Below are positions 16,504-31,948 of a stretch of DNA of 32,049 bases, piece after piece. The stretch is taken from positions 1-32,049 of the forward strand of contig CANQVE010000028.1 of NCBI GenBank assembly GCA_947627205.1, given 5' to 3'. A program made the translations under genes and the position numbers. Source of the DNA: an uncultured Clostridia bacterium (GTDB taxonomy: Bacteria > Bacillota > Clostridia > Oscillospirales > Ruminococcaceae). Below the pieces are notes generated by a model. The model saw nothing but the letters and a program-made list of their open reading frames with translations, did no database searches and was not told where the DNA came from. Numbering within the stretch: the first letter of the stretch is position 1; every line of letters begins with the position of its first letter.

Positions 16504-16572
16504 AACTATCCTCCCCAAAACAAATAAGACAAAAACGTTCAGGCTTTTACAACCCGTACTTTCTTATGTTTA

Positions 16573-16601
16573 ATTATATCATTTTCGACAATAATTGTCA
16601 A
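16573..16601 (-). promoter_or_regulatory. Consensus SigA promoter for the second M23 gene
   Basis: Minus-strand TTGACA (16601-16596) and TATAAT (16578-16573) are perfect with a 17-base spacer, the same strength as the promoter of the paralogue. Confidence 0.9.
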
Positions 16602-16752
16602 GGAAAATATGAAGTTCTCTATAAGACTTAACGAACTTGTTTTCCCCTCTGGACTCCCCTTTCAAAAAACTTTCGTGCGCCGCTCGTTTTGTAGTTTAAA
16701 AATCAAACGTTGTTCGCCGCTCAAAACAGCTTCTAATCCCTTGCAAACACTC

Positions 16753-16861
16753 TTCAGACTGTATAGAAAGCCCCAGATGTTAGAAAGCGTGGCTACGGCT
16801 AGGCTTTGTGCCTGCCGTAGTCACGCTGACAACGCAGATGGGGCTTTATATACAGTCTGAA
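16753..16861. repeat. 109-bp imperfect palindrome with 13-bp identical ends
   Basis: The ends are TTCAGACTGTATA in inverted orientation, followed on both arms by AAAGCCCCA after one mismatch. Further in, AGCGTG and CTACGGC pair with CACGCT and GCCGTAG around a 13-base loop. The transcript of either strand would form a long hairpin. It could be a MITE relic, a terminator-like element or a structured RNA. No poly-T tail follows on the plus strand. Confidence 0.75.
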
Positions 16862-16939
16862 TTTTCGTCATTATTTCAAAATACCTACTGCTATAGTAGT
16901 TTGTTATTGTTTACAACCACCGAAAATAAAAAAATCCAC

Positions 16940-16968
16940 TTGATTTAATAGACTAAGTGTGTTAAAAT
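16940..16968 (+). promoter_or_regulatory. SigA-type promoter for the two-component genes
   Basis: TTGATT (16940-16945) and TAAAAT (16963-16968) are spaced by 17 bases, 43 bases before the response-regulator ATG. Confidence 0.7.
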
Positions 16969-17011
16969 AAACGCGTAAAGTGAAATAATTATCCCGAAAG
17001 GAGTGCCAAAT

Positions 17012-17755
17012 ATGCATCATATCGCCGTTTGTGATGACGAAGAAATTTGGATAAAAGCCACCATCGAACACCTCAACAACTATTTCGCCAAGCATAGCGA
17101 AATACCCATAAAAATACACTCTTTTCAAAACGGGCTTGAACTCCTCGAAAAAGCAAACGGCATTGATTTCGACCTTTATATAATAGACGTTCTTATGCCT
17201 GCAATAAAAGGCATTGACTTAGGGCGAAAGCTCCGAGACAACTCTAAGGACGGAATGATAATCTACCTCACTTCTTCAAAGGATTTTGCTCTCGAAGCGT
17301 ATGATGTACAGCCGTTTCACTATCTCATAAAGCCCCTCGAAAAGGAAAAGTTGTTCTTAACGCTCGACAGGGCGTTTGATATAATCAAAAAGAGAAAGAA
17401 CAGCTCTATCGTCGTAAAAACAAAAGACGGCATTTTGTCGCTTGCGTTCGACGACATCATTTATGTAGAATATGCGAACCGAATTTGTCAATATCATCTT
17501 AGAGACGGGCAGACTATCTCCCAAAGCCGTCAAAGGCAGTCTTTTGCGGAAATAAGCTCGCCGCTTCTTGAGGACGACAGGTTCAGCCGCTGCGGAGCAA
17601 GCCTTGTTGTAAATCTTTATTATGTCAATGCCATAAATAAAGACCAGCTCTATTTCAAGGACAACCCCGAACCGCTGTTTCTGCCGAAAAAATCGGGAAC
17701 TCCGCTTCTGTCGGCGTGGCTCGACTATTGGATGAAAGGAGAGAAACACCAATGA
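17012..17755 (+). CDS. LytTR-family response regulator (AgrA/VirR-like)
   Basis: The 247-residue protein has an N-terminal receiver domain (1-120) with the acidic pair D8-D9, phospho-acceptor D59 (IIDVLMP) and conserved K107 (IKP), then a LytTR DNA-binding domain (about 131-245) with VKTKDGILSLAFDDIIYVEY and FSRCGASLVVNLYYVNAI. LytTR regulators such as AgrA and VirR bind pairs of about 9-bp direct repeats spaced by two helical turns. I chose the ATG at 17012 since AAGGAG lies 8 bases before it; a GTG at 17003 overlaps that site. Its stop overlaps the kinase start (ATGA). The likely target is the pilus promoter downstream, which carries 21-bp-period repeats. Confidence 0.95.
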   Translation: MHHIAVCDDEEIWIKATIEHLNNYFAKHSEIPIKIHSFQNGLELLEKANGIDFDLYIIDVLMPAIKGIDLGRKLRDNSKDGMIIYLTSSKDFALEAYDVQPFHYLIKPLEKEKLFLTLDRAFDIIKKRKNSSIVVKTKDGILSLAFDDIIYVEYANRICQYHLRDGQTISQSRQRQSFAEISSPLLEDDRFSRCGASLVVNLYYVNAINKDQLYFKDNPEPLFLPKKSGTPLLSAWLDYWMKGEKHQ

Positions 17756-19059
17756 GCGAGGTTCTCAGGATCTCTTCGGGAATATGGTCGACAATACACA
17801 TTGTTATCCTGTTTATACTTTCTTCTTTCCCGAAGCTCTATTCCAAAAAGTCGATAGCCGTTCTGTGCGGGATAATGGTTTTTATTATTGCAGCGAACAT
17901 CATGCTTTTTTTAAATCTCGGACAAGACGGTTTTGGAAAGATCATACTGATCTCGGTTACATTTCCGTTTTTTATCGCCGCTTTTGTTCTCTCAAAGAAA
18001 CGCGGCACGCAGTTTGTCTTTACGTTCTGCCTGGTAAACACGGTTTCTACGGCAATTATAGTGCTTTCTCTTATCCTCAATTATTACATTTCCCCAACAA
18101 CCAACCTCTTTATGTTTATATCAAGGATAGCGGGATTTCTGCTTATTGAAATAGGGGTAATAAAAAGGCTCCGCAGGCAATATTTTGAGATACAGGAAAG
18201 CGTCAAAAAGGGCTGGGGAATATTTACCATGACAGCCGCGGCGTCCCTTATTATAATGATAGCTTTGTCTACATTTCCCTCGGTCATTTCGGATCGTCCC
18301 GACGATATGCCCATGCTTATAACGCTTATCATTCTTATTCTGCTTATGTATCTGATGATCTTCCAGACACTAAGCAGGCAGAAAGAGCTGAACGAAATTG
18401 AGCGTGAAAACGAACTATGGCAGATTGAACTCAAGCAGATGCAGCGGCGCATTCGCCAGATGAACGAGGCAAACGAGCAGATAAAAATAGCCCGCCACGA
18501 CATGAGGCACAGGCTTTCGGGAATAGACGTTATGCTCAAAAAAGGCGAGATAGACGAAGCGGAAGAATACATAGCCTCGTCGCTCAAAACGCTTGAATAC
18601 AGCGGAGAGAAGCTGTATTGCAAAAACGCGGTGCTTGACGCTATATTCAGCTATTATTTTTCTCTTGCAAAAGAAGCGGATATAGAAGTAGTACACGATC
18701 TGAACATTTCAGACGAGCTTCCCGTTAAAGCGTCGGAGCTTTCGGTCGTTGTGGCGAACGCTCTTGAAAATGCAATTCACGCTTGCGAGGCAATAAATGT
18801 TGACAATAGGATAATACGCTGTCGCTGTATTGAAACTCCGCAATTTATGCTTCAAGTCAGCAACCCTTATTCAAATGAAATCAAGACGGACGAAAACGGC
18901 ATTCCCATTGGCGCCGACGGAAACCACGGCATCGGAACGCGCTCGATACTTGCATTTTGTGAAAAATACGGCGCGCAGGTAAACTATAAGATAGGAAAAG
19001 ACATCTTTTCGATAAGGATCGTAATTCAAAAACTCCCCCCCCCGAAGATTTTTAACTAA
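17752..19059 (+). CDS. GHKL sensor histidine kinase (AgrC-like)
   Basis: The 435-residue protein has about seven hydrophobic segments in residues 8-205, a short coiled coil (about 208-245), a phospho-acceptor region RHDMRHRLSG with H249, and a GHKL ATPase domain with N-box ANALENAIHAC (N336, N339) and G-box GIGTRSI. This matches membrane-sensing AgrC/CitA-type GHKL kinases that pair with LytTR regulators. I chose the ATG at 17752 because GGAG precedes it and it overlaps the regulator stop. Nine consecutive C residues at 19035-19043 encode the Pro run near the C-terminus, and slippage there would change the last residues. No agrB/agrD-type genes are adjacent, so the ligand is unknown. Confidence 0.92.
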   Translation: MSEVLRISSGIWSTIHIVILFILSSFPKLYSKKSIAVLCGIMVFIIAANIMLFLNLGQDGFGKIILISVTFPFFIAAFVLSKKRGTQFVFTFCLVNTVSTAIIVLSLILNYYISPTTNLFMFISRIAGFLLIEIGVIKRLRRQYFEIQESVKKGWGIFTMTAAASLIIMIALSTFPSVISDRPDDMPMLITLIILILLMYLMIFQTLSRQKELNEIERENELWQIELKQMQRRIRQMNEANEQIKIARHDMRHRLSGIDVMLKKGEIDEAEEYIASSLKTLEYSGEKLYCKNAVLDAIFSYYFSLAKEADIEVVHDLNISDELPVKASELSVVVANALENAIHACEAINVDNRIIRCRCIETPQFMLQVSNPYSNEIKTDENGIPIGADGNHGIGTRSILAFCEKYGAQVNYKIGKDIFSIRIVIQKLPPPKIFN

Positions 19060-19099
19060 ATTTCAACCGATTTTAATTTTTATCGGTTTGTATAATGAT

Positions 19100-19155
19100 A
19101 TCAGGCTGTTAATAAATTCCCTGTTTTGCAGACAGGATTTTATCGACAACCTGAT
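19100..19155 (+). terminator. Strong terminator after the kinase gene (CAGGCTGT element, copy 2)
   Basis: ATCAGGCTGTTAATAAA and its partner TTTTATCGACAACCTGAT form a long imperfect stem, with CTGT/ACAG pairing at the tip, followed by T residues. It insulates the regulators from the pilus operon. Its arms resemble the element at 2632. Confidence 0.85.
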
Positions 19156-19175
19156 TTTTTTCGCGAAAAATTTTT

Positions 19176-19211
19176 GACTAATTTGGTGAAAAATTCGACC
19201 AATTTGGTGAA
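19176..19211 (+). promoter_or_regulatory. Two direct repeats, candidate LytTR regulator binding sites
   Basis: GACTAATTTGGTGAA (19176-19190) and GACCAATTTGGTGAA (19197-19211) differ at one base and start 21 bases apart, two turns of DNA. They end 5 bases before the weak -35 of the pilus promoter. This is the arrangement known for AgrA/VirR-type LytTR regulators. The repeats are seen directly; the binding protein is inferred to be the regulator at 17012. Confidence 0.75.
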
Positions 19212-19216
19212 TTGTC

Positions 19217-19245
19217 TTTAAAAATTAAAGAAACTGTGGTATAAT
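19217..19245 (+). promoter_or_regulatory. Activator-dependent-looking promoter of the pilus operon
   Basis: A perfect -10 TATAAT (19240-19245) is preceded at 17 bases by TTTAAA, a poor -35. The repeats at 19176-19211 abut it, so transcription probably needs the bound regulator. The leader to the adhesin ATG is about 46 bases. Confidence 0.75.
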
Positions 19246-19297
19246 GGCAAAAGAATTTTTGAGTTGCCGCTTATACGGCTTGTCGGAGGAAAACGAT

Positions 19298-22200
19298 ATG
19301 CAGAACCGAAATAACACTTCAAATAAAAAACTGCATAGCAAAAGGGCTCTGTGGCAAAGAATACTTGCCTCGGTGCTTTGCGTTTGTCTTGTCGTTCCTA
19401 TGTTGAACGGCGTTGATCTCACATGGAAAATGCAATCGAAATCGAATATAGCTTCTGCGGCTACAGCGGAAGAGGAACAGAAAGCGCGCGCAGAAGAATA
19501 CGCGAAGAAGTTTGATCTGGATGATCTTAAATGGAGCGGCGCTACCACGGAAAACGGGAGCATAAACTACGGCAATTCTATGAGGACTTATCTTGACTGG
19601 CGTACAGGATCGAATGCAGGAATGAACCAAAGGAATTATATCCATGTTTTCGCTTTTGAGGGCGATACTATCTGCTTCGGTTCAAATGTTTTTAACTCCA
19701 CACTGAACGAATCAGGATTAGCGGTAGCTAACACTACTGAAAAGCAAGATATACATAATCGTTTTGGCAATGAGAACGCAACCATAGATATTGTGCTTAT
19801 TGATCTTCAGGGAAACCGTATACCTTTTGATGTAGTTCAAAACGGCGCAGGGCATATCCCGAATGTACAGACAGAAGTTCTCGCGAAAACCATGGAGACT
19901 ATAGCGGGAAAAAGCGGAAAAAACAAAAGCGGCAAAGAATTTACTTATACTCCCCTTACCTATAAAGTAAAGGAAACGGGCGTTTATACATTTGAATTTC
20001 ATTCCTATGATAACTCCGGAACTTCCGGTGTCACTATAAAAAATGACACGGTTGAAAAAGTTTCGGGAGTTGATGTTAAAAACACATTTTACGATTTTTA
20101 TACAAGTGTTAAAAATAATACTACTAACGAATATTATACTCCAACTGATAATGATCACGGCGGTTTGGTCGCGGCGTGGGATATAAGCGTTTTTAATGAA
20201 ATGGATCAGAAAGAAACAGGCAGAGTTTATGCAGACTATCTTTCTTTACAGCAAAACGGAAACTCTACAATAGAAACTTATTATGTACTGACTACAGACA
20301 GTTATATCTATAGGTGGGATTGGAAAGGAAATGCTCCTTATACATACTATTTCTTTACGGATAACCGCGGTCTTATTGACAATGTTACGGGAAATACTAT
20401 TTATAAATCCGCAAAAGGTTATACTAACAACGGAGAAGATTATACAAAATTCGGAGCGGAGTATAAATATCCTACAAGTATAAATACGGAAACTTCTAAA
20501 ACGTTTTCCATATTCTTTGAAATGCCGAACACCGACCTTGAGGGGCATTTGTATTCAAAGGCTCTACAGCCCGACCCGGCGGAGGATATAAAGTTTATCG
20601 ACAAGGTTTCTGTAGAGGGCAAGGAAGTACCCGGCGCTTATCAAGGGGCGGGCGGATATTTCTCGTTTAAAACAGGAGAGGCAACTACAGCCACGCTGAC
20701 GCTCGATTTCACAAAGCTTAAAGACGAAAAAGGAAATCCTGTAAGCGTAAGCTATGCTCCCGTAAGTATTTCAAGATCGGTAACACCTCATTCCATAAAC
20801 TATTTTTACTGGGACGGAAAAGACGGAAACGGAGAAGTTATACCCAAAGGAAAATATAACATAACCGATCTGATTACTATCACCACAAAAGCGGGAGAGA
20901 TACATTTCCCCGTAAACGATTTGGAAAATGCCCAAAAAGGCTTTACCTTTACACGCGTCAGCCCTATCTATGACAAAAACGGAGAACGGTTAGACACGCC
21001 CGGTTCTATCCTTGACGCAACAAAGAGCGTAATTTATTATGACGATTCCGCTATTTATTACGGAGAAAAGATAGGAAATACAGATAATACAGAAGCTGAC
21101 GTAAGGAACGACGCCGGTAGTTATGTGTTACGCGAACATTATAAGGACATGGGAAGTCTGAAAGATGATTCAACAGGAAAATCAAACAGCGTATATTTTC
21201 GGTATAACAACGTAAAACCCGGAGTGAACGGCAACGAATATTATATCAGAAGTCAGTGCAAGGATTATGTAGGCGGTATTACTGCACTTAATGACGGAGT
21301 TACGGGCTTTACTGCCGAAAAATTTATCCGCATAGGCGACCATAGCCATACCACAAACAAAATTGAGTTTTACGGTGAGGATGGCAAATTCCTCCAAAAA
21401 GGTGAATTTGACGATCAGATGTCGATGATAAACTATCTCGACAGCGCTAAATACCCTGTTGGAGTTACAAACTCAAATGGAGAAACATCTGTGACTGTTG
21501 GCAATACCAAAGAATACTATTATGGTAGTGTAAGCGACTACGGACTTGTAAACTACTGGACATTTATTCCCTCACAGCCCGTAAAGTTTAATTCCGAAGT
21601 CGGAACTATAGACATAGTAGAGGGAGATTCTTTCAATCTTTCTTGTCAGGTATTCTTTGACAACAACAGCAACGGAATTTACGACCAGATGAAAGACGAG
21701 GACACGCTACTTTCCGGCATTACTCTCAGACTTTACCGCAAGACGGCGGACACAAGCCCGAAAGAGGGCAAAATATACTACAGAACAGGTTCATCACCCA
21801 CAAAAGTTAATAGCAGCGATACGATTACAACCCCGAGGAATACTATAATCGCTGTAAATTCAGGCACAATAACTAACCCCCAAGCAGAAGGACTTTTTGA
21901 GCTTTACCGCGAAGCAATTACCACTGTAGGCGGATATGTGTTCAGTAATATTCCCTATTCAGACGGAGACCAATTTGTATATGAAGTTGTACGTCCGAAT
22001 AATAGTTATGTTCTGACTTCGGGAAAAACAAAAGGCATGACACGAACACCATCAAACGGTCATATCATAGGAAATAACTATGTTCTTTATAATTATGACA
22101 CGACCGCTTTCGGAACGGAAGTTCAGGTTATAACTGTAGGCGAACAAGAAAAACAAATTAACCCAAAATATAAAAGCGACGGTATGAGCAACAACTACAC

Positions 22201-25200
22201 CCGCACCATATCGGCGATCGACGTAGGCTATAACTATACTACATACAAGACCGTAACGCTTCAAAAGACATGGGAAGCAGCGGTTTCGACCGAAGAAACG
22301 CCCGTGCCCGTGTTCGAGCTTAGCTATGTAGATAACGAAAATAAAACTCATGTCTACGAGGAAAGGCCCCTCGCAAAGATTGATAAACTGTCATATTCTT
22401 ATCCCCTGCTTTCAAACTCAATAAACGGAAAACTGATAAACGACTGGTATGTTTCGGCGGAATACTATATAATAGATGACGTGCTGTATAAGCAGGTGTT
22501 TGAATATTCGCCCGAAGCGGGAGATTATTCGAGCTTTGTAGGAACGTGCTATAAATATACGGGCGAGAAAATAACAGACCAATTTAGTCTTCCCGATACA
22601 AACGAAGACGGAGTGAGCGACTGGAGCGATCTAGCGGGAATTACCGAATGGACAGTATCGACCGAGTCGAAATATCATGCGGTACTTGACAGAATACTTG
22701 GCACGCAGGAAATAAACATAAGCATTACAAACTCGGAAGATCCGGGTATTATCGAAGTTCTGAAATACACAGGAGCATTAGAGGACAAAAATTATCTTCA
22801 GGGCGCAACGTTCCGTGTATATACGAACAGCGACACCGAAGATCCACTAACGCTTGAAAAGGTTCAAGCAAAAATCGACAGCGGAACAACCGAAGATCTG
22901 CAATGGCTTGCCGATCATCAGGTGGGAAGTTCCACCACAAGAACAAACGGGCGCGTTACGTTTGCGGGACTTGATACGAAGAAGCACTATATCGTGCGCG
23001 AGATGTACGCCCCCGCGGGCTACAGACTTATGGAAGCGCTCTATATGGTCCACCCCTACAACTGTACAGAACATAAGTTAGCCGAGGGAACAAGCGAAGT
23101 TGAAACCGAAAAGTGGAACATGCAGAACTTCTTCTTTGACGAAAAAGGTTATGTACAGGCGGCTATAGCAAATATCCCCGCAAACGGAGATATGGCGATA
23201 AGAAAACAGATAGTCGGGCGCGCATGGAACAGTGAGGACAGTTTCTCTTTTGACCTTACTTTCTGGAACGGAAACAACAAGCTTAGCTTTTTGAGCGATA
23301 CTTATAACTATCCCGGAGCGATCGAAATATCGGAAGATGAACTCACTATTTTAAAGGCTTCGGGTGGAGAAACGACTTTCAGAAAAGCTCTTGAAGATTT
23401 TATCAAAGCGATAAATGACAGCGAGAACGATGTAGTCGTAAACTATCTGTGCGATTTTGCGAAGAATGTTTTTTCAATAAACGGCACAAAGGATATCGAA
23501 GAATCGCTCGTAGACACAAAACAGTCGGTTTCGCTCGTTGTTAATGCCGAAACAGATGAGGACGGAATTCCTGTTGATAAAAACCCCGAAGACGCTATCC
23601 TTAATACTTCAAAGGATACAACTACGCCTTTGGAACATCAGATTCAAAACAGCCACCCTTTCCCTGCCGCGGGAACGTATACATTTACGATAAAGGAAAA
23701 TGTTCCCGATAATACAGGAACAATGAGATATACGGGGCGCGTTTATACGCTCGTGGTAGAAGTAACGAGAATGCCAATCGATGGTGTTGTTGATGGCACC
23801 ACGTTGAATTTAGGCAACTCTTATCTCAGAGCGGAAGTAAACCAGATCTACTATCAGGATCCGACCACAGACGGCGCAGAATACCCCGAAGATTACGGTC
23901 CGAAGCAGATCTACGCGGGCGTTGCTCCTACGTTTACAAACGAGTATTATGTACAGCCCGCAAAGCAAAGCACAAGCTACGCTATTGAAAAACAGTTCAG
24001 CGGAAGAATGGACGAGGACGGAAATCTACTGAAAGACTGGCTCGAAAGCGATAAATTCACAATCAAGATAGAGGGCGCGGACGACATAACAAAAGAAGCT
24101 CTCTTAAACGGAAACATCTTTATTGGCGGTCTGAAAGAAGAAGCTCCTTACAGTGAATCAAAGACGCTTGTCTTTACGAAAGACGGAGTTTTTGACAGCA
24201 AGGGCAATACGTTAAGCAAAGATGACGAAAAACACTTATTCAGATTTGACGAGCTGGATTTCAGAAACCTTGCGTTCCCTGTTGAATGGGTGTTCACGGA
24301 AAAAGCTCCGTCAGGATACAATATAGGCGATGTTGTTCCGAAAGACGAGAACGAGGATAAGTATGTAGTCCTTTATCTTGACGACGCAAGAGCAAAGGAA
24401 TTGGGAGTATATCCCGGAAGCTACTTTGTTGAAAATTTAAGTGCTGAATTAACTGAAAGCAATCTCTATCCCGTAATTTCTCGGACGCAGGACATTGTTT
24501 ATACTCTGATGATAAGCGAAGAAAACGGCAGTATAGCGGGCGTTACTTATGACACGACAAAGTATAAAATGGTCATTACTCTTAAAAATGCCCTCAATGT
24601 CAGCACTTCTGCAGGAGGACTTGCCGAAGCAGTTACGGACGGTATAATCGACGAGATCGAGATAAACCTTTATTCGATGAAAGGCGCAGAAGAAGATTTA
24701 AAGGCATACTGCAAGACCGACCAGCACGTTGTGGATAACTTTGACGCTTGGAGTAATCCCGAAAAATATTTTGCTCATTATACGACATCAAGCGATAACA
24801 CGGCTACTTGTACTGTTTACTACGTCAATTCTGATGGAGTGATAAGAGAAGCACAGATAACGGAAACCGACGGATCAAAGAAATATGAGGTGTTCTATTC
24901 GGACGCCTTGCACGAAATAAACGCAACTAACTTTGAAACGTATATTAAGAACGGCGTTACTTTCATAATCAAGCGCGAGGAACATTCTGCCACGAATACT
25001 CACGAAATGCCGTTTAAGAACACTTACACGGAAACCGCAAAGTGGACACCGAAAATTACAAAAACGATAAACGGCAGAAGTTGGCTTGAAACAGACAGCT
25101 TTAAGTTCACAATAGAAGCAACTTCTTGGCCGGGATATGACGGTGAACATAAAATAGACGGCTACGAATTGCACAAGCCTAAATTCACTGATAATGATAT

Positions 25201-26581
25201 CGTTGTCGCATACACCAACTTGACGACGGCAGGCGGAACGACAGCCGAGGCTTCAATGCCCGAAATAGAGTTCAATGCTCCGGGTACATACACGTTTACG
25301 GTAACCGAAAGTTCGGCTTTACCGGGCGGAATGAACGTAAACTACGGAGAAGTAACGCTTACAGTGACCGTAACGAGCAAAAACGACGGTACTCTGACAG
25401 TTGCAAGCGTAACGGCTAAAGACGGTGAAGCCGATATAACAAGTTCTTTTATAGACATTTCTGCGGGAAATGTTAGTCTGAACTTCGTAAACACCTACAG
25501 CGAAACGGGAACATTCCACCTATACCTCACAAAGACGCTCAAGGGAAGAAAATGGACAGACGAAGAATTTACCTTTATCATCACTCCCGATACGGCTACT
25601 TTGGCGGCAATAGGAAAACAACTCAAAATTCCCGATAGTTGGACAGACAATAAGGACGGAACATATTCCGTAACTATTAAAAATGATAAGGATAACTCAA
25701 CTGACGTAACGGAAGAACTGAAAACTACGCCTTGGACAACAAGACAACTTGATTTGGGAGAGCTTGTTGTAAAAACTCCCAGAGAGGCAAACGAAGCATA
25801 CAAGTTTACAATTGCGGAAGATACATCGCAATTTGCTTCTACTGAAGAAAATATTCTAAACGGTCTCGATTGCGCTCAGCCGAGCATAAATCTACAGATA
25901 AATGCGATTTCTGACGGAAAGAGCGCCGGTGATCTTACATTTACGGCGACGTTTGCAGCCGTAGGAACAGACCTGCCCACTGCAACACCGACAAGCGAAA
26001 TTACGCTTCCATTTACTAACGCGGACACAAGGCTTGGAACAATAACGGTGAAAAAGACCGTAAGAGATCAGCCCAAGGACGAAAAATTCTCGTTTACGCT
26101 AAAGCTGACAAAGCCGAGCTCTAACCTTGTTTTGGAGTTGAGCGAGCTTGAAATAACTCTTAATGGCACAGCATATACGCCTACATGGACAACAAGCGAA
26201 GATGGAAACTCGTTTACTTTAACATTTGAGTTAGGAAACGGAGAGTCTCTTATTATTGAGAATGTTCCTTATGGCACGGAATATGCGGTCAAGGAAGCAG
26301 ATTACGGCGGCTTCCACCTACAGGAAGTCAAGGACAAAGACGGCAATGCTCTTGCGTTGTCCTTTGACGGAAAAGGAGTAATCGGCAGTGTATCGACCGA
26401 CAACAAAGATGTTGTTCTTGAGTTTGTAAACTCGCGGTTCTATGATATGCCGTTTACGGGCGGAGCGGGCGTTCACCCGTGGGTAATACTCGGAATAATG
26501 CTTATGGTTCTCCCGCCGACTGTTTATTTGTTTTACAGGAAAAGGCGAAACAAAGAGTTCGCAAAGTCCTTTAAAAAATAG
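19298..26581 (+). CDS. Giant multidomain pilus adhesin with MPFTG anchor
   Basis: The 2427-residue protein has a signal segment (hydrophobic about 20-40). A large N-terminal region (about 60-770) probably carries binding; it includes a FlgD-like WDGKDGNGEVIPKGKY strand pair near 505. Next come an SdrB-like unit (FFDNNSNGIYDQMKDEDT, near 780), a Cna-B unit (about 984-1130), a SpaA-type domain with E-box REMYAPAGYR (about 1148-1255), FctA/Spy0128-like domains starting near 1295, 1561, 1914 and 2071, and a last Cna-B unit (about 2246-2365). Lys, Asn and Glu patterns in these folds usually form isopeptide cross-links. The anchor is MPFTG (2384-2388), a membrane helix and a basic tail. GGAGG precedes the ATG at 19298. 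It is probably the pilus tip adhesin. Confidence 0.92.
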   Translation: MQNRNNTSNKKLHSKRALWQRILASVLCVCLVVPMLNGVDLTWKMQSKSNIASAATAEEEQKARAEEYAKKFDLDDLKWSGATTENGSINYGNSMRTYLDWRTGSNAGMNQRNYIHVFAFEGDTICFGSNVFNSTLNESGLAVANTTEKQDIHNRFGNENATIDIVLIDLQGNRIPFDVVQNGAGHIPNVQTEVLAKTMETIAGKSGKNKSGKEFTYTPLTYKVKETGVYTFEFHSYDNSGTSGVTIKNDTVEKVSGVDVKNTFYDFYTSVKNNTTNEYYTPTDNDHGGLVAAWDISVFNEMDQKETGRVYADYLSLQQNGNSTIETYYVLTTDSYIYRWDWKGNAPYTYYFFTDNRGLIDNVTGNTIYKSAKGYTNNGEDYTKFGAEYKYPTSINTETSKTFSIFFEMPNTDLEGHLYSKALQPDPAEDIKFIDKVSVEGKEVPGAYQGAGGYFSFKTGEATTATLTLDFTKLKDEKGNPVSVSYAPVSISRSVTPHSINYFYWDGKDGNGEVIPKGKYNITDLITITTKAGEIHFPVNDLENAQKGFTFTRVSPIYDKNGERLDTPGSILDATKSVIYYDDSAIYYGEKIGNTDNTEADVRNDAGSYVLREHYKDMGSLKDDSTGKSNSVYFRYNNVKPGVNGNEYYIRSQCKDYVGGITALNDGVTGFTAEKFIRIGDHSHTTNKIEFYGEDGKFLQKGEFDDQMSMINYLDSAKYPVGVTNSNGETSVTVGNTKEYYYGSVSDYGLVNYWTFIPSQPVKFNSEVGTIDIVEGDSFNLSCQVFFDNNSNGIYDQMKDEDTLLSGITLRLYRKTADTSPKEGKIYYRTGSSPTKVNSSDTITTPRNTIIAVNSGTITNPQAEGLFELYREAITTVGGYVFSNIPYSDGDQFVYEVVRPNNSYVLTSGKTKGMTRTPSNGHIIGNNYVLYNYDTTAFGTEVQVITVGEQEKQINPKYKSDGMSNNYTRTISAIDVGYNYTTYKTVTLQKTWEAAVSTEETPVPVFELSYVDNENKTHVYEERPLAKIDKLSYSYPLLSNSINGKLINDWYVSAEYYIIDDVLYKQVFEYSPEAGDYSSFVGTCYKYTGEKITDQFSLPDTNEDGVSDWSDLAGITEWTVSTESKYHAVLDRILGTQEINISITNSEDPGIIEVLKYTGALEDKNYLQGATFRVYTNSDTEDPLTLEKVQAKIDSGTTEDLQWLADHQVGSSTTRTNGRVTFAGLDTKKHYIVREMYAPAGYRLMEALYMVHPYNCTEHKLAEGTSEVETEKWNMQNFFFDEKGYVQAAIANIPANGDMAIRKQIVGRAWNSEDSFSFDLTFWNGNNKLSFLSDTYNYPGAIEISEDELTILKASGGETTFRKALEDFIKAINDSENDVVVNYLCDFAKNVFSINGTKDIEESLVDTKQSVSLVVNAETDEDGIPVDKNPEDAILNTSKDTTTPLEHQIQNSHPFPAAGTYTFTIKENVPDNTGTMRYTGRVYTLVVEVTRMPIDGVVDGTTLNLGNSYLRAEVNQIYYQDPTTDGAEYPEDYGPKQIYAGVAPTFTNEYYVQPAKQSTSYAIEKQFSGRMDEDGNLLKDWLESDKFTIKIEGADDITKEALLNGNIFIGGLKEEAPYSESKTLVFTKDGVFDSKGNTLSKDDEKHLFRFDELDFRNLAFPVEWVFTEKAPSGYNIGDVVPKDENEDKYVVLYLDDARAKELGVYPGSYFVENLSAELTESNLYPVISRTQDIVYTLMISEENGSIAGVTYDTTKYKMVITLKNALNVSTSAGGLAEAVTDGIIDEIEINLYSMKGAEEDLKAYCKTDQHVVDNFDAWSNPEKYFAHYTTSSDNTATCTVYYVNSDGVIREAQITETDGSKKYEVFYSDALHEINATNFETYIKNGVTFIIKREEHSATNTHEMPFKNTYTETAKWTPKITKTINGRSWLETDSFKFTIEATSWPGYDGEHKIDGYELHKPKFTDNDIVVAYTNLTTAGGTTAEASMPEIEFNAPGTYTFTVTESSALPGGMNVNYGEVTLTVTVTSKNDGTLTVASVTAKDGEADITSSFIDISAGNVSLNFVNTYSETGTFHLYLTKTLKGRKWTDEEFTFIITPDTATLAAIGKQLKIPDSWTDNKDGTYSVTIKNDKDNSTDVTEELKTTPWTTRQLDLGELVVKTPREANEAYKFTIAEDTSQFASTEENILNGLDCAQPSINLQINAISDGKSAGDLTFTATFAAVGTDLPTATPTSEITLPFTNADTRLGTITVKKTVRDQPKDEKFSFTLKLTKPSSNLVLELSELEITLNGTAYTPTWTTSEDGNSFTLTFELGNGESLIIENVPYGTEYAVKEADYGGFHLQEVKDKDGNALALSFDGKGVIGSVSTDNKDVVLEFVNSRFYDMPFTGGAGVHPWVILGIMLMVLPPTVYLFYRKRRNKEFAKSFKK

Positions 26582-26614: not shown

Positions 26615-28606
26615 ATGAATACTTCAACAAAACATTTTTTACCTAGAATAATAAGCGCGGTAATTGCGGTTCTGCTGGCGCTTACGGTGGCTGTACCCGC
26701 AATGGGGGCGGCTACTGAAGGTGAAAATCTTACTATCACCATTAAGAATAACAAAGGTCTGCCTGCAATGAGCAAAGATATGTTTGCGGTTTATCAGCTC
26801 TTTAAAGGTACACCTCAGAAAGACGGAGACGCAGGCGAAAATGATTGGGGCGCAACAAGCTGGAACAATTATGTTTTAGCGGATATTGAATGGGGCGCAA
26901 GCGTTACAAAACCTGCTGAATTTCTTAATGCATTGCAAAAGTTAGACGAAGATTGGACAAGTGATGAACACGGCAAACTTTTTGATACTGTAAAAACAGC
27001 CGCTGACCTTGCGAATGTTCTTGTAGGAAAAGACAATGAATTTATGCAGCATTTCGCAAAGTTCCTCGTTAATTCAAAGCAGCTCACGGCTTTGAATAGC
27101 GAACAAATAACAGAGACGGTTTATAATGATGACACTGACCATGCAAAAGACACTTTAACTTATAAAGTAAAAGATGCAGGTTATTATCTGCTGGCTGAAA
27201 CCGGCGACCATAGTGATGAACACGGTGAAGTAAACGACGCTGAATCCGAATATATTATAGCGGTACTCGGAAATCAGACCATAAACCTTAAAGCTTCTAT
27301 ACCTACCGTAAGGAAATATATAAAAATTGATAAAGATACAAAAGCAAAGGGTACTTCTGCCGACATAAACGAAAAAATAACATTTGTTATTGAAGGCACG
27401 CTCCCCAAGAACTACGGCGACTTTGTAGACGGCTATGAGTATATTTTCCATGATTATCTTGCTGATAGCTTTACGATCGACAAAGACCCTTTGGACACAT
27501 GGATCACAGTTACCATTACAACAGGCGAAACAACATATACATTGACAACTGACCAGTTTGCTGTAAATGCGAGCGGAACAAGTGACGATTCTAAAATAAA
27601 TTATGCACCATGTTCTCAGGAAATCGACATTGCTGATTTAAAGGAACTGGAAGGGAAAGAAGATGTTGACGGTAATGAAATAACAATTACCGATAAATCC
27701 GTTATCAGAGTTGAATACAATGTCATTCTTAATGAAAAAGCCACATTAGGAAATACAGGAAACAACAGCAAGGCTACGCTTCAGTATTCTAACGACCCTA
27801 ATGACGTAATCACAAGCAGCAACCACACAAATTCAAGCAACGTTTATGTTTATACTTACGGTCTTGATTTGAAAAAGATCGGAAGCGACAGCGCACACAG
27901 TACTGGACTTGGCGGAGCAGGATTTTTGCTCTACAAAACCGACAGCACCGGCAAAAAAACATTCTGCGCAACATTTGATACTTTAACGGATTCAACTTCA
28001 AGAAAAGTTATAGGCTACCGTTTTAAAGGTTGGGCAAATGCTGAAACTGTAGATAAATTGATAGAAAATTACAATGTTGCTAAAGAAGCATATGACAATG
28101 CTTCAAATGACAGCCGTACAAATTCCGGTTCAACGGAAAACACTGCTCTTAACAGCGCATTAGACGCTTTAAAGGTTTATTTGCTTAATTCTTCAAATGC
28201 AGAGGGAGAAATTGGCGTAATTCCCGATATTACAGGTATTGCGGCAGATACATACGCTCTCAAAGAGGTAGTTACTCCCGCAGGCTATAACACTATGGCT
28301 GACTTTAATTTGAAGATTGAAGAAAAATTAACAGAGGCAACGGGAATACTCGAAAGATTTACTTATACTTCCGATACAAACACATTGGGAACGACCTACA
28401 GTGCTTCAAGTGAATCAGATGTATTTAATAATGGTCTTATCCCCGACACTCTGACAAACATAAAAGCTCCTCTGCTTCCCTTTACGGGCGGTATAGGAAC
28501 AGTTATATTCTATGTTCTCGGCGGAGCGCTTGTTGCGGGAGCTATAGTGTACATCATTATTATTGCTAAAAAGCGCAGAAAAGAAACCGAAAACTCTGAT
28601 AAATGA
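26615..28606 (+). CDS. Major (backbone) pilin with LPFTG anchor
   Basis: The 663-residue protein has a signal peptide (about 8-33, cleavage near AMGA), an N-terminal pilin domain, a segment SIPTVRKYIKI whose Lys (about 234) is a candidate for the pilin-motif lysine used in polymerisation, and a middle isopeptide-type domain (about 240-415). A C-terminal Cna-B/SpaA domain follows (about 417-605) with GLDLKKIGSD, GAGFLLYK and the E-box YALKEVVTPAGYN. The LPFTG signal is at 621-625, then a membrane helix and KKRRKE. This is the layout of SpaH/EbpB-type major pilins. I chose the ATG at 26615 because GGAAGGAG precedes it; an ATG at 26591 has none. It starts 33 bases after the adhesin stop. Confidence 0.92.
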   Translation: MNTSTKHFLPRIISAVIAVLLALTVAVPAMGAATEGENLTITIKNNKGLPAMSKDMFAVYQLFKGTPQKDGDAGENDWGATSWNNYVLADIEWGASVTKPAEFLNALQKLDEDWTSDEHGKLFDTVKTAADLANVLVGKDNEFMQHFAKFLVNSKQLTALNSEQITETVYNDDTDHAKDTLTYKVKDAGYYLLAETGDHSDEHGEVNDAESEYIIAVLGNQTINLKASIPTVRKYIKIDKDTKAKGTSADINEKITFVIEGTLPKNYGDFVDGYEYIFHDYLADSFTIDKDPLDTWITVTITTGETTYTLTTDQFAVNASGTSDDSKINYAPCSQEIDIADLKELEGKEDVDGNEITITDKSVIRVEYNVILNEKATLGNTGNNSKATLQYSNDPNDVITSSNHTNSSNVYVYTYGLDLKKIGSDSAHSTGLGGAGFLLYKTDSTGKKTFCATFDTLTDSTSRKVIGYRFKGWANAETVDKLIENYNVAKEAYDNASNDSRTNSGSTENTALNSALDALKVYLLNSSNAEGEIGVIPDITGIAADTYALKEVVTPAGYNTMADFNLKIEEKLTEATGILERFTYTSDTNTLGTTYSASSESDVFNNGLIPDTLTNIKAPLLPFTGGIGTVIFYVLGGALVAGAIVYIIIIAKKRRKETENSDK

Positions 28607-28659: not shown

Positions 28660-29526
28660 ATGGGAAAAACCGCAAAACCGAAAAGTAAAAAACATACCGC
28701 GGTTTCAGCCGTAATTCTGACGCTTGTTCTTCTTACGGGCATTGCGCTGCTGCTGTATCCGACTGTAGCGGATTATATAAATTCTCTCGACTACAGAAAG
28801 GATATCGAAAAGTATCAGGACGACGTTAAAAAACTTGACGATACGACAAGGCAGAATATGCTAAAAGAAGCAGAAGAATGGAACATAAGACTTGCCGAGA
28901 AATCGGAGCTTATGAGTCTGCTTACAAGCAAAGAACACACGACCTATAACAGCCTTTTAAATCCTACGGGTACGGGCATTATAGGTTATATAGAAATTGA
29001 AAAGCTGAAAATTTATCTTCCTATCTACCACGGAACGGAAGAATCTGTTCTCCAGAGCGGCATAGGACACCTTGAGGGCTCGTCGCTCCCCATAGGCGGG
29101 AAAGGAACTCATGCGCTTTTGTCGGGGCACAGCGGTCTCCCCTCCTCAAAGCTGTTCAGCAACATAGACCAGCTTAAAAAGGGAGATACGTTTGTTATTC
29201 ATGTTCTCGGAGAAGTATTGACATACAGAGTTGAAAGCTCGGCGGTTATGCTTCCCGAAGATGCCGAAAAGCAGGAGTTTTATCCAGGCCGCGATATTTG
29301 CACGCTTATGACCTGCACGCCGTACGGAGTTAATACACACCGACTTCTTGTACAGGGAGTGAGGGTGGAAAACGTTGCGGAAGAAAAGCCCGAAATGCCC
29401 GTTGAAGAAGAAATTCCCGAAGAAGAAATGCCCGTTATACTTTGGGTGGCAATTTTCGGGATTCCGGCGGTAATTATCGCCGCGGTGATAATTCTTCTTG
29501 TACGGCACAAAAAGCGGCGGAAATGA
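28660..29526 (+). CDS. Class C (pilin-polymerising) sortase, first copy
   Basis: The 288-residue enzyme has an N-terminal membrane helix (about 14-36), a sortase domain and a C-terminal helix (about 261-282), the layout of class C sortases. The catalytic triad is visible: H157 (LLSGHSGLPSSKLF), C219 (TLMTCTPYG) and R228 (VNTHRLLV). Class C sortases cut the sorting signal of a pilin and join it to a lysine of the next subunit, building the fibre on the outer membrane face. The usual lid motif Asp-Pro-Trp/Phe before the domain is not found; the corresponding stretch reads WNIRLAEKSELM. The ribosome site (GAAAG) is weak. It follows the pilin after a 53-base gap with a hairpin. Confidence 0.93.
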   Translation: MGKTAKPKSKKHTAVSAVILTLVLLTGIALLLYPTVADYINSLDYRKDIEKYQDDVKKLDDTTRQNMLKEAEEWNIRLAEKSELMSLLTSKEHTTYNSLLNPTGTGIIGYIEIEKLKIYLPIYHGTEESVLQSGIGHLEGSSLPIGGKGTHALLSGHSGLPSSKLFSNIDQLKKGDTFVIHVLGEVLTYRVESSAVMLPEDAEKQEFYPGRDICTLMTCTPYGVNTHRLLVQGVRVENVAEEKPEMPVEEEIPEEEMPVILWVAIFGIPAVIIAAVIILLVRHKKRRK

Positions 29527-29533
29527 GGCGGCA

Positions 29534-30409
29534 ATGAAAAAAGAAAAATCAAATTCGCCACTTCCTATAATAATAATCGTTATTATGATGGCGACGGGAC
29601 TCGGCTTACTGCTTTATCCGACAATTGCCGACATGATAAACGATTCTCAAAACCAAAAGGCAATATCCGAATATAAGGACAATGTCGAGTCGCTCGGAGA
29701 AAGCGAATATCAGAAGATACTCGAAGCAATAAGCGACTACAACAAAGACCGCGCGGAGCATACGCCTTATCTTACAAAACTAACAGCCGAAGAAAGAGCC
29801 GTTTATGAAAGCCTTTTGAATGACGGCGGAAACGGTCTTATAGGATATATCGAAGTTGAAAAATCGGACGTATATCTCGGCATTTATCACGGCACAGACG
29901 AAAGCGTTTTACAGACGGGGGCAGGTCATCTCGAATCGTCGAGCCTGCCTGCAAAAGGAGAAAGCGTTCACGTTATGCTTACGGGACACAGCGGACTTCC
30001 GTCGGCGCGTCTGTTTACCGACCTTGACAAACTGAAACCCGGCGATAATTTTACACTGCACATACTTAATGAAACGCTTGTTTATGAAGTTCAGAGCGTA
30101 AAGAGAGTGCTTCCCGAAGAGCTTGAATCTCTAAAGATAGAACAAGGTCAGGAGCTATGCACTCTTATAACCTGCACTCCGTACGGCGTAAATACTCACA
30201 GGCTTACGGTCACGGGGAAAAGAATTGACGCTCCCGAAAAGACCGAGGACCTCTCCTCTGCCGAGCAGACGATAACTTCCACTTGGAATTGGTGGTTTGT
30301 GTTCCTGCCTGCGGTGATATTTATACTGATGACAGCGGGCGTTGTTATACTGCTGTATTTCAGAAACAAAAAGAAGAAAGCCCCTTTTAACAAGGAGGAT
30401 AATAAATGA
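29534..30409 (+). CDS. Class C (pilin-polymerising) sortase, second copy
   Basis: The 291-residue enzyme is a close paralogue of the preceding gene: N-terminal helix (about 10-28), H152 (LTGHSGLPSARLF), C214 (TLITCTPYG), R223 (VNTHRLTV) and C-terminal helix (about 255-278). The lid motif DP-W/F is again absent (YNKDRAEHTPYLTKL). Two class C sortases in one pilus locus often differ in specificity, for example polymerising the backbone versus adding the tip or accessory pilin. I chose the ATG at 29534, 7 bases after the previous stop; a longer in-frame start overlaps the previous gene and has no good ribosome site. Its TGA overlaps the next start (ATGA). Confidence 0.93.
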   Translation: MKKEKSNSPLPIIIIVIMMATGLGLLLYPTIADMINDSQNQKAISEYKDNVESLGESEYQKILEAISDYNKDRAEHTPYLTKLTAEERAVYESLLNDGGNGLIGYIEVEKSDVYLGIYHGTDESVLQTGAGHLESSSLPAKGESVHVMLTGHSGLPSARLFTDLDKLKPGDNFTLHILNETLVYEVQSVKRVLPEELESLKIEQGQELCTLITCTPYGVNTHRLTVTGKRIDAPEKTEDLSSAEQTITSTWNWWFVFLPAVIFILMTAGVVILLYFRNKKKKAPFNKEDNK

Positions 30410-31332
30410 AAAAACGCCTCATATCCATATTATTATGCATGGCATTGTTTTTAATAAACATTGTTCCGACATCTGCCGAAGCTGTCGGGAGGATATATGT
30501 TATGCTCAAATATGGAGATATGCCTGTAGCAGAAGCGTCTTTTCAGATCTACAAAGCCGCAGATATGACCGAGAACGGAATGACACTTGCCGAGCAGTTT
30601 TCAAACTATCGTGTAAGTATGGCACAGGATCCGAACAGCGACGAATGGAAAGCGCTTGCTTCTACTCTCGAGGCGTATGCGGCGGCGGATAAATTAGAGC
30701 CTTTTGATGAACAACAGACAGACGAAAGCGGAATGCTTTGTTTTGACGGACTTTCGGACGGCGTTTATCTTGTAACGGGTTCGCCCGTTATTAAAGATGA
30801 CCTGCTGATACTGCCGCAGGCGGTATTGGTGACTGTTCCCTATTCAAGCGATTCGGGAGAAGCCGATTATGATGTAGTCGCTTCGCCGAAATACATATCG
30901 CGTGATTTAAACGGCGGTGTTCTGGAAAGACGCGTGCTGAAGATATGGAATGATGAAAATAACACTCAGAGCCGCCCACAGGAAATAACCGTTCAGCTTC
31001 TATGCGACGGTGAAGCTTATGACGAGCAAGTTCTGAACGAAGAATGCGGATGGGGATATACCTGGAACGGGCTTGATCCTGCTCATAACTGGCAGATAAC
31101 AGAAAAGGAAGTTCCCGATGATTATACTGTAAAAATAACACAGCAAGGCACGACCTTTACCGTTACAAACACAAATGACACCCCTGCTCCCCCGCCGACA
31201 AAGCCCGATGATCCCGATCTTCCGTACACGGGAATGTTGTGGCTTCCTGTTCCTATACTTATAGCTTTCGGCGCGGTAACGCTGTTTGTCGGAATAATGC
31301 TTTTTATCAAGAAAGAAGATACAGATGAGTAA
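30406..31332 (+). CDS. Minor (basal or accessory) pilin with LPYTG anchor
   Basis: The 308-residue protein has a signal peptide (1-24, TSAEA), an N-terminal beta domain (about 27-168) and a Cna-B domain (about 174-258: RRVLKIWNDENN to GTTFTVTNTND, with WQITEKEVPDDY as E-box). A Pro-rich stalk follows (259-271), then LPYTG (272-276), a membrane helix and KKEDTDE. A small Cna-B pilin with a Pro-rich tail at the end of a pilus operon usually anchors the fibre to the wall or forms its base. AAGGAGG precedes the ATG, which overlaps the sortase stop by ATGA. The last gene overlaps its end by 8 bases. Confidence 0.92.
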   Translation: MKKRLISILLCMALFLINIVPTSAEAVGRIYVMLKYGDMPVAEASFQIYKAADMTENGMTLAEQFSNYRVSMAQDPNSDEWKALASTLEAYAAADKLEPFDEQQTDESGMLCFDGLSDGVYLVTGSPVIKDDLLILPQAVLVTVPYSSDSGEADYDVVASPKYISRDLNGGVLERRVLKIWNDENNTQSRPQEITVQLLCDGEAYDEQVLNEECGWGYTWNGLDPAHNWQITEKEVPDDYTVKITQQGTTFTVTNTNDTPAPPPTKPDDPDLPYTGMLWLPVPILIAFGAVTLFVGIMLFIKKEDTDE

Positions 31333-31948
31333 ACGCAGAAAGCTCGGCATTGTTTTTATACTGATCGGAAGCGTATTTATTCTCTGTGCTGTGGGACTTA
31401 TAATTTACAACATCTGGGACGACAACAGAGCACAGGAGTCGGTAAAAAATGTGCTGAGTGAACTGAAACTTCCCGAAAAAACAGTTGAAGCAGAAGATGA
31501 AGCAAGCGACGATCCCGAAGTGACGGTCCCCGATTATTTGCTTGATCCAAACCGCGAAATGCCTACAATAACTGTAGACGGCTACAAATACATAGGAAAA
31601 GTAACTGTTCCGTCGATAGAGCTTGAACTGCCCGTTATGGAAAAATGGGATTATGTACGGCTGAAAATAGCGCCCTGTCGGTATTCGGGCTCGGCGTATC
31701 TTAATAATCTGATAATCTGTGCGCACAATTATGCCTCGGTTTTCGGCAGGCTAAAAAACCTTTCGGCGGGAGACCTTGTAATGTTTACCGACGCCCAAGG
31801 CAATGTATTCAGATACGAGGTAGAGCAGCTCGAAACCCTTTCGCCGAGCCAAGTTAAGGATATGAAAAGCGGTGACTGGGATCTTACGCTGTTTACCTGT
31901 ACAGTCGGAGCGCTGAAGCGTATAGCGGTAAGATGTGAAAGAATTTAA
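31325..31948 (+). CDS. Third sortase, short form (anchoring or class D-like)
   Basis: The 207-residue protein has one N-terminal helix (about 8-28), a linker (about 45-70) and a sortase domain from about 85. Catalytic residues are H134 (ICAHNYASVFGRL), C192 (LTLFTCTVG) and probably R199 (KRIAV). It lacks the C-terminal helix and the CTPYGVNTHR motif of the class C enzymes, so it is of another class, with class D or a diverged form likely. In pilus loci such an enzyme commonly attaches the finished pilus or the basal pilin to peptidoglycan. It overlaps the minor-pilin gene by 8 bases and ends the operon. A weak AT stem after the stop is the only terminator candidate. Confidence 0.88.
   Translation: MSKRRKLGIVFILIGSVFILCAVGLIIYNIWDDNRAQESVKNVLSELKLPEKTVEAEDEASDDPEVTVPDYLLDPNREMPTITVDGYKYIGKVTVPSIELELPVMEKWDYVRLKIAPCRYSGSAYLNNLIICAHNYASVFGRLKNLSAGDLVMFTDAQGNVFRYEVEQLETLSPSQVKDMKSGDWDLTLFTCTVGALKRIAVRCERI

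Follow-up and report, generated by a model that had tools for sequence, protein, structure and literature searches.

To our knowledge, little is known about how gut Clostridia time the production of sortase-assembled pili. The better-known pilus regulators, those of streptococci and enterococci, are of the RofA/Nra, Mga, or AraC types. The locus analyzed here raises the question of whether a clostridial pilus operon is switched by a LytTR two-component system encoded directly 5′ of it, acting through a pair of direct repeats at the pilus promoter. The window, by which we mean the whole 32,049-nucleotide stretch of DNA that was analyzed, is a contig of a 2.25-Mb genome, and a preliminary description of it had proposed a pilus switch of this kind. 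We consider it likely (with a probability of roughly 0.8) that the repeats are the operator of the adjoining LytTR regulator and that the phosphorylated regulator binds them and activates pilus transcription.

The pilus operon

As the preliminary description had claimed, a pilus operon lies 3′ of the repeats. It combines two class C sortases scoring above the NCBIfam cutoff with proteins that carry sorting signals, the combination that marks a sortase-pilus operon. Its genes are as follows.

19298..26581, + strand: very large pilus protein, 2427 aa; FTG-type C-terminal sorting signal; SpaA, FctA/Spy0128-like, and DUF7601 domains; TIGR03786 domain
26615..28606, + strand: candidate major (backbone) pilin, 663 aa; LPFTG sorting signal; PF16569 and NF033902, both below cutoff
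28660..29526, + strand: class C sortase 1; NF033745, 254.4 bits (cutoff, 160)
29534..30409, + strand: class C sortase 2; NF033745, 234 bits (cutoff, 160)
30406..31332, + strand: Cna_B-domain minor pilin, 308 aa; PF05738, 64.6 bits; LPYTG sorting signal
31325..31948, + strand: third sortase; PF04203, 61.4 bits; general TIGR01076, 44.8 bits (cutoff, 39.35)

The 2427-aa protein is probably the tip or adhesin, and the 663-aa protein is probably the backbone pilin, an assignment that rests on matches under the curated cutoffs (PF16569, 26.0 bits against 30.5; NF033902, 64.8 bits against 95). No NCBIfam class model matched the third sortase at its cutoff. Presumably, the pilins are assembled into a pilus. 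Elsewhere in the window, two similar genes on the minus strand (6574-7950 and 15151-16518) encode proteins of 458 and 455 aa that look coiled-coil by eye and carry what we take to be a probable M23 peptidase region.

The adjoining two-component system

Directly 5′ of the repeats, we found the LytTR regulator and GHKL kinase that had been described there, in two genes that overlap by 4 bases.

17012..17755, + strand: response regulator; receiver domain at residues 4-116, LytTR DNA-binding domain at residues 140-219
17752..19059, + strand: sensor histidine kinase; hydrophobic N-terminal half, HDMRHR phospho-acceptor-like motif (residue 249), GHKL ATPase

The regulator thus has the domain order of a LytTR response regulator, a receiver followed by a C-terminal LytTR domain, with a GHKL-type kinase alongside. 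Its receiver aspartate (D59) is invariant in the regulator alignment. Both of its Pfam matches exceed their cutoffs (PF00072, 56.5 bits; PF04397, 27.3 bits, with a cutoff of 22.6), the LytTR match being weak at 27.3 bits; PF04397 matches 51 of 75 aligned regulator homologues at an E value of 0.001. In an AlphaFold2 model of the regulator (mean pLDDT, 91.9), the five best PDB matches were full-length ComE chains (E values, 2e-13 to 2e-11), and the LytTR domain of AgrA ranked 27th (TMt, 0.78). The full-length superposition on ComE is loose (TM, 0.43 to 0.49), so the two domains are placed differently in the model and in ComE. The protein models as a REC-LytTR regulator, with ComE as the closest structure. 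The kinase was assigned from PF14501 (56.1 bits), the HDMRHR and NALENA motifs, and computed hydropathy. Quorum sensing of the agr type was also considered: the AgrB profile PF04647 matched none of the four genomes that have the locus; as a control, it matched 1 of 14 named genomes, below the cutoff.

The regulator's own promoter region (16540-17011) contains no repeat pair at distances of 18 to 24, and therefore no feedback through the pilus operator is predicted. An inverted-repeat element (16753-16861; 23-nucleotide arms with CAGACTGTA termini) lies 5′ of the regulator promoter. At two orthologous loci (L054 and L055), a similar element lies between the regulator promoter and the regulator gene, a position from which it could affect regulator expression.

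The genome has three further LytTR genes. One of these regulators (L052) is preceded by a pair of its own, TCCGATTTCTTAA and TTTGACTTCTTAA, 21 bp apart, which matches at 10 of 13 positions and differs in sequence from the pilus pair; it lies about 207 bases 5′ of its regulator gene, ahead of a promoter-like site. That this regulator has a different pair speaks for separate operators per regulator.

Repeats, promoter, and terminator

The stretch between the kinase gene and the pilus operon holds the following elements.

19100..19162, + strand: intrinsic terminator closing the regulator-kinase transcript; hairpin, then a T run
19176..19190, + strand: distal repeat of the putative operator, GACTAATTTGGTGAA; LytTR-like 9-mer ACTAATTTG at 19177-19185; invariant in all four species
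19197..19211, + strand: proximal repeat of the putative operator, GACCAATTTGGTGAA; 9-mer ACCAATTTG at 19198-19206; invariant in all four species
19217..19245, + strand: pilus promoter; weak −35 TTTAAA at 19217-19222, 17-bp spacer, consensus −10 TATAAT at 19240-19245, TG before the −10
19174..19222, + strand: 49-bp invariant block comprising both repeats, the spacer, and the −35; 0 of 49 columns variable in four species

The preliminary description had placed two 15-base repeats with one mismatch 21 bases apart, and this is what the window contains: the repeats are identical at 14 of 15 positions and start 21 bases from each other. Likewise, the proximal repeat ends 5 bases before a weak −35 that is followed by a perfect −10, as had been stated. 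Written as 9-mers, the layout is ACTAATTTG-12-ACCAATTTG-10-TTTAAA-17-TATAAT. The gap of 12 bp between two direct repeats of about 9 bp falls within the 11 to 13 bp given as a rule for LytTR operators (PMC6193735), and the site lies just 5′ of the −35, at the typical distance of 10 bp. The proposed agreement with the known spacing of LytTR direct repeats was thus borne out against the operator geometry as set out in that source. A −35 this weak, together with a −10 that matches the consensus, is what would be expected of a promoter that depends on an activator. Transcription would be expected to start near 19252.

A strong terminator had also been claimed between the kinase gene and the pilus operon, and the folding calculation agrees: 19090-19165 folds at −21.1 kcal/mol (z, −4.29), and none of 200 shuffled sequences was equally stable. 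Because this terminator isolates the regulator-kinase transcript, the operator-promoter region is the pilus operon's own entry point.

We compared the window with 200 dinucleotide-preserving shuffles, scoring 15-mer pairs with at least 14 of 15 identities and excluding low-complexity words. One distance-21 pair was found in the real window and none in any of the 200 shuffles. At distances of 16 to 80, the window has two pairs, against 0.12 per shuffled window; the other pair (position 3619, distance 33) is unrelated to the operator repeats. In the whole genome, the two-repeat pattern is present once when up to 3 mismatches are allowed.

Conservation in four species

The orthologous locus, with the same gene order, is present in 3 of 60 relatives, and orthologues of the regulator (93 to 98% identical) and of the sortase (94%) occur in these same 3 of 60. 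In these three relatives the kinase is about 96% identical, and the two large pilus proteins are 71 to 74% and 54 to 62% identical to those of the window. The preliminary description had made its case depend on conservation of the repeats at orthologous pilus promoters, and they are invariant at all three. The 49-bp invariant block stands in an intergenic alignment of the four species in which 52 of 248 columns are variable, 10 of them within the 15 bases directly before the block. An equally long invariant run arose in 1 of 20,000 column shuffles, a test that ignores shared descent.

The exact operator core occurs once in each of the four genomes that have the locus. When up to 3 mismatches were allowed, a second match appeared in one of the four, while two of them gave a single match with a reversed-pattern control. 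We also weighed a palindromic reading of the repeats, in the form of a larger inverted repeat at 19169-19195; its outer arms are variable, whereas the direct repeats are invariant, and the palindromic reading is disfavored because the outer arms are not conserved.

Regulator homologues and congener operators

For regulator homologues, we started from the best 80 of 516 loci and removed 3 orthologues and 5 near duplicates, which left 72. In the 300 bases 5′ of each regulator gene, we looked for 13-mer pairs at distances of 13 to 35. Pairs with at least 10 of 13 identities were found at distance 21 in 28 of the 72, against 0 to 6 at each of the 22 other distances and 2.1 in shuffles; with at least 11 of 13 identities, the count among the same 72 (from the best 80 of 516) was 13, against 0 to 3 and 0.37. 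Many of these pairs resemble TTTGCGCAAAATTTG written twice (L056-L132) and mostly lie 50 to 110 bases 5′ of the regulator gene, and a few, such as those at L079, L085, L106, L107, and L111, are chance-like in appearance. At 16 of the 28 loci, the best promoter-like site (score of at least 9), often TTGACG-17-TATTTT, lies 5′ of the pair, with little or nothing downstream of the pair (score of at most 6); many pairs sit so near the start codon that little downstream room remains. A promoter site 5′ of the pair suggests autorepression of the regulator gene. Given the repression-like layout at these 16 of 28 loci, the direction of control is not fixed by the family.

An initial scan of relatives for the repeat motif of the window gave nothing clear. 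A related operator was spotted by eye in congeners: GTCAATTAAGTGA written twice with 20-bp spacing, of which there are 19 sites in 4 of the 9 genomes searched, the reversed-pattern control giving 0. Among the 18 pairs in fetched DNA, 14 have their best promoter-like site in exactly the window's register, with six bases between GTGA and the −35 and a spacer of 17 bases. The other four comprise two pairs located at regulator-kinase junctions (L161:10810 and L044), the leading pair in an array of three repeats at L161, and the pair at L046. Because the congener sites lie beside LytTR genes, they are presumably bound by a LytTR protein.

These congener operators (genomes G013, G019, G020, and G030; loci L158-L165, L042, L044, and L046) probably constitute a multi-target regulon driven by LytTR. 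At least three precede proteins with an LPXTG-like pattern (L046, L163, and L165), and others lie before large proteins whose N-termini look hydrophobic by eye or at regulator or kinase genes. The array in G019 (L161:9926-9978) has three operator repeats in 20-bp steps before a −35, 5′ of a gene divergent from a regulator gene. In the same genome, the regulator and kinase beside the paired operator at L046 (10141-10590 and 9554-9868) look broken, with short open parts and one internal stop; G019 also has another regulator homologue with an open frame.

Both comparisons, that of the homologue pairs and that of the congener operators, are independent of the window, and both support the reading of its repeats as a putative LytTR operator.

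How general is the coupling?

The preliminary description had suggested that the same repeats be sought before Cna-B pilus operons in related genomes. This held for the three orthologous promoters and did not extend outside the four-species clade, as the following two surveys indicate. In a sample of 197 genomes from the order, which excludes the three congeners with the orthologous locus, the two-repeat pattern occurred in one, namely, the window's own genome, and the exact operator sequence is therefore not widespread. Homologues of sortase 1 (E value, 1e-40) were found in 56 of 245 genomes, in 71 rows. From these, we examined 68 other sortase loci, chosen as sortase 1 homologues rather than by individually assigned class and made up of 67 of the rows and one locus found separately; the four rows left out were two from the window, one second sortase of a locus already counted, and one that was not fetched. 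Within the fetched stretches, a LytTR profile matched 2 of the 68 loci (L210 and L256), which is a lower bound because several stretches were short or ended by contig ends. A receiver-containing profile also matched L206, L208, L218, L219, and L261. In the intergenic DNA of the 68 loci, distance 21 was not prominent (8 pairs, against 0 to 12 at other distances).

At L210 (15300-17485), a regulator and kinase adjoin pilus genes, and a 21-bp pair (10 of 13 identities) stands before a TTGACA promoter-like site at the kinase. At L256 (8295-10345), a regulator and kinase lie 5′ of the sortase.

Approached from the regulator side, homologues of the window's pilus genes were found at 1 of 77 other regulator loci (from the best 80 of 516), many of whose stretches were short or cut; this was L068, where they lie about 5 kb from the regulator. 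This region, which is also that of L201 (reverse strand), belongs to an Oscillospiraceae MAG; it has a pilus operon with a 3484-aa protein that shows an LPXTG-like pattern and, about 5 kb downstream, a LytTR regulator with its kinase. Its 21-bp pair (10 of 13 identities) precedes a 1280-aa open frame between the pilus operon and the regulator, not the pilus operon; from the look of its N-terminus, the large protein behind the pair is probably secreted.

The closest pilus operon outside the clade is that of L202, whose sortase 1 is 61% identical. It starts at a contig end, with its promoter out of view. In this genome (86% complete), we found no close homologue of the regulator, only weak receiver matches, and the first 300 residues of the large pilin, used as a query, gave no match, a null that is uninformative by itself. 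Since this pilus operon occurs in a genome in which no close regulator homologue was found, the pilus and the switch seem separable. Judged from these surveys, the LytTR-pilus coupling is clade specific.

Model and alternatives

How might such a switch work? A signal from outside would reach the GHKL kinase in the membrane, which would phosphorylate the LytTR regulator. The regulator would then dimerize, and each of its two LytTR domains would occupy a half-site, both on the same DNA face and directly 5′ of the weak −35. Bound in this way, it would recruit or position RNA polymerase and thereby turn the pilus operon on. A paired docking site fits a sensor-controlled regulator encoded next door, so an outside signal probably switches pilus production on, and the position of the repeats 5′ of a weak −35 argues for activation. 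The sequence itself shows which parts are present, how exactly they are spaced, and that they are conserved and nearly unique; it also shows that the same spacing and promoter register recur elsewhere in the family and the genus. Binding by the adjoining regulator, dependence on phosphorylation, and activation rather than repression are what the model would add to these, as is the “self-contained, signal-controlled” character that the preliminary description had given the switch. The computational predictions of that description, as far as they could be tested, held at the locus itself (geometry, invariance, one exact copy per genome, and pairs at homologues). Because the regulator's own promoter has no pair, though homologues often have one, the link between regulator and operator rests on adjacency, geometry, and conservation.

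We think it unlikely that the adjoining regulator acts from the repeats as a repressor, keeping the pilus operon off until a signal removes it. The pair in the window lies 5′ of the weak −35, clear of the promoter, its layout is that of the activated VirR, SilA, and LytTR-system promoters as described in PMC2838878, PMC2766830, and PMC6193735, and 14 of the 18 congener pairs have the same promoter register. What speaks for repression is the group of 16 of 28 homologue loci (from the best 80 of 516) at which the best promoter-like site is 5′ of the pair, though in many there is little room downstream.

Slightly less probable again is a different binder: either another LytTR regulator, of which the genome could supply three, or some unrelated factor for which each repeat would be a palindromic site (ACCAA-T-TTGGT). 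The proximal repeat is indeed an 11-bp near palindrome, from which the distal repeat differs at one position; against this, the arms of the inverted repeat vary on the outside while the direct repeats do not. Another LytTR regulator would have to be reconciled with the separate pair of L052 (21 bp apart, 10 of 13) and with the co-occurrence of regulator and pilus genes in the same four genomes.

That the repeats are a chance or neutral duplication, as the second, unrelated pair at 3619 (distance 33) might lead one to suppose, is very improbable in view of the absence of any distance-21 pair from 200 shuffled windows and the run of 49 columns without change where 52 of the 248 aligned columns vary.

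The preferred reading, activation by the adjoining regulator, may be part of a wider picture. Here, a dedicated, one-operator LytTR two-component switch would directly turn on a sortase pilus in gut Clostridia. It would belong to a theme running through the genus, with LytTR regulators controlling cell surface genes through paired operators in one fixed promoter register and with half-site and target changing by lineage; in this clade, the operator would be at the pilus promoter rather than at the regulator's own gene, as in many homologues. We would give this wider picture about even odds.

Since regulator, operator, and promoter can be named to the base, the signal can be sought with a reporter in a laboratory host. 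Moreover, a promoter register common to operators of different half-site sequence offers a practical way to find LytTR targets in uncultured Clostridia.

Comparison with known systems

LytTR-type repeats are described as 9 to 10 bp long with gaps of 11 to 12 bp, and one-base changes in the gap abolish activity (PMC2766830, which also cites VirR as a LytTR regulator). In the LytTR regulatory systems, the gaps are mostly 12 bp, with a strong bias to a position 10 bp before the −35 (PMC6193735).

The VirR boxes of the VirR/VirS system of Clostridium perfringens resemble the window's site: they consist of two imperfect direct repeats that share a helix face and directly precede the −35, and both repeats are needed for transcriptional activation (PMC2838878). 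However, as that account presents it, VirR/VirS governs toxin and other genes in a multigene regulon, whereas the window has a single site before a pilus operon, and the half-site sequences differ. As in the window, the 9-bp direct repeats of HdrRM/BrsRM are in most cases separated by 12 bp and frequently placed 10 bp before the −35, and repeats such as ACCAGTTAT or ACCACTTAT resemble the window's ACCAATTTG (PMC6193735). Those systems, as described there, have a membrane inhibitor as partner and are autoregulated; in contrast, the window's regulator has a receiver domain and a GHKL kinase, with neither a membrane inhibitor partner nor an operator at its own promoter.

Other regulators have also been linked to pili. 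Of two streptococcal pilus loci, one has a RofA-like regulator alongside and the other has none (PMC5249243). In group A Streptococcus, FasBCAX includes a ComE-like regulator that affects a sortase pilus and has a putative dimer site 5′ of a −35, but unlike the proposed switch, it acts indirectly and negatively: FasA turns on the small RNA FasX, and FasX in turn reduces pilus translation (PMC12675982). FpsR of Ligilactobacillus ruminis, like the proposed regulator, is a two-component regulator that promotes pili in a gut commensal (PMC12688256). Titles and abstracts, which made up most of the literature surveyed on LytTR operators, pilus regulators, and adhesins, yielded no LytTR regulator acting directly at a sortase-pilus promoter. 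Another counterpart of the proposed switch is AlgR at fimU in Pseudomonas aeruginosa, where a LytTR response regulator directly activates a prepilin operon, with higher affinity when phosphorylated; that case concerns type IV pili (PMC4064291). Thus, the LytTR operator mechanism is a known one, and it is the sortase-pilus target that is apparently new.
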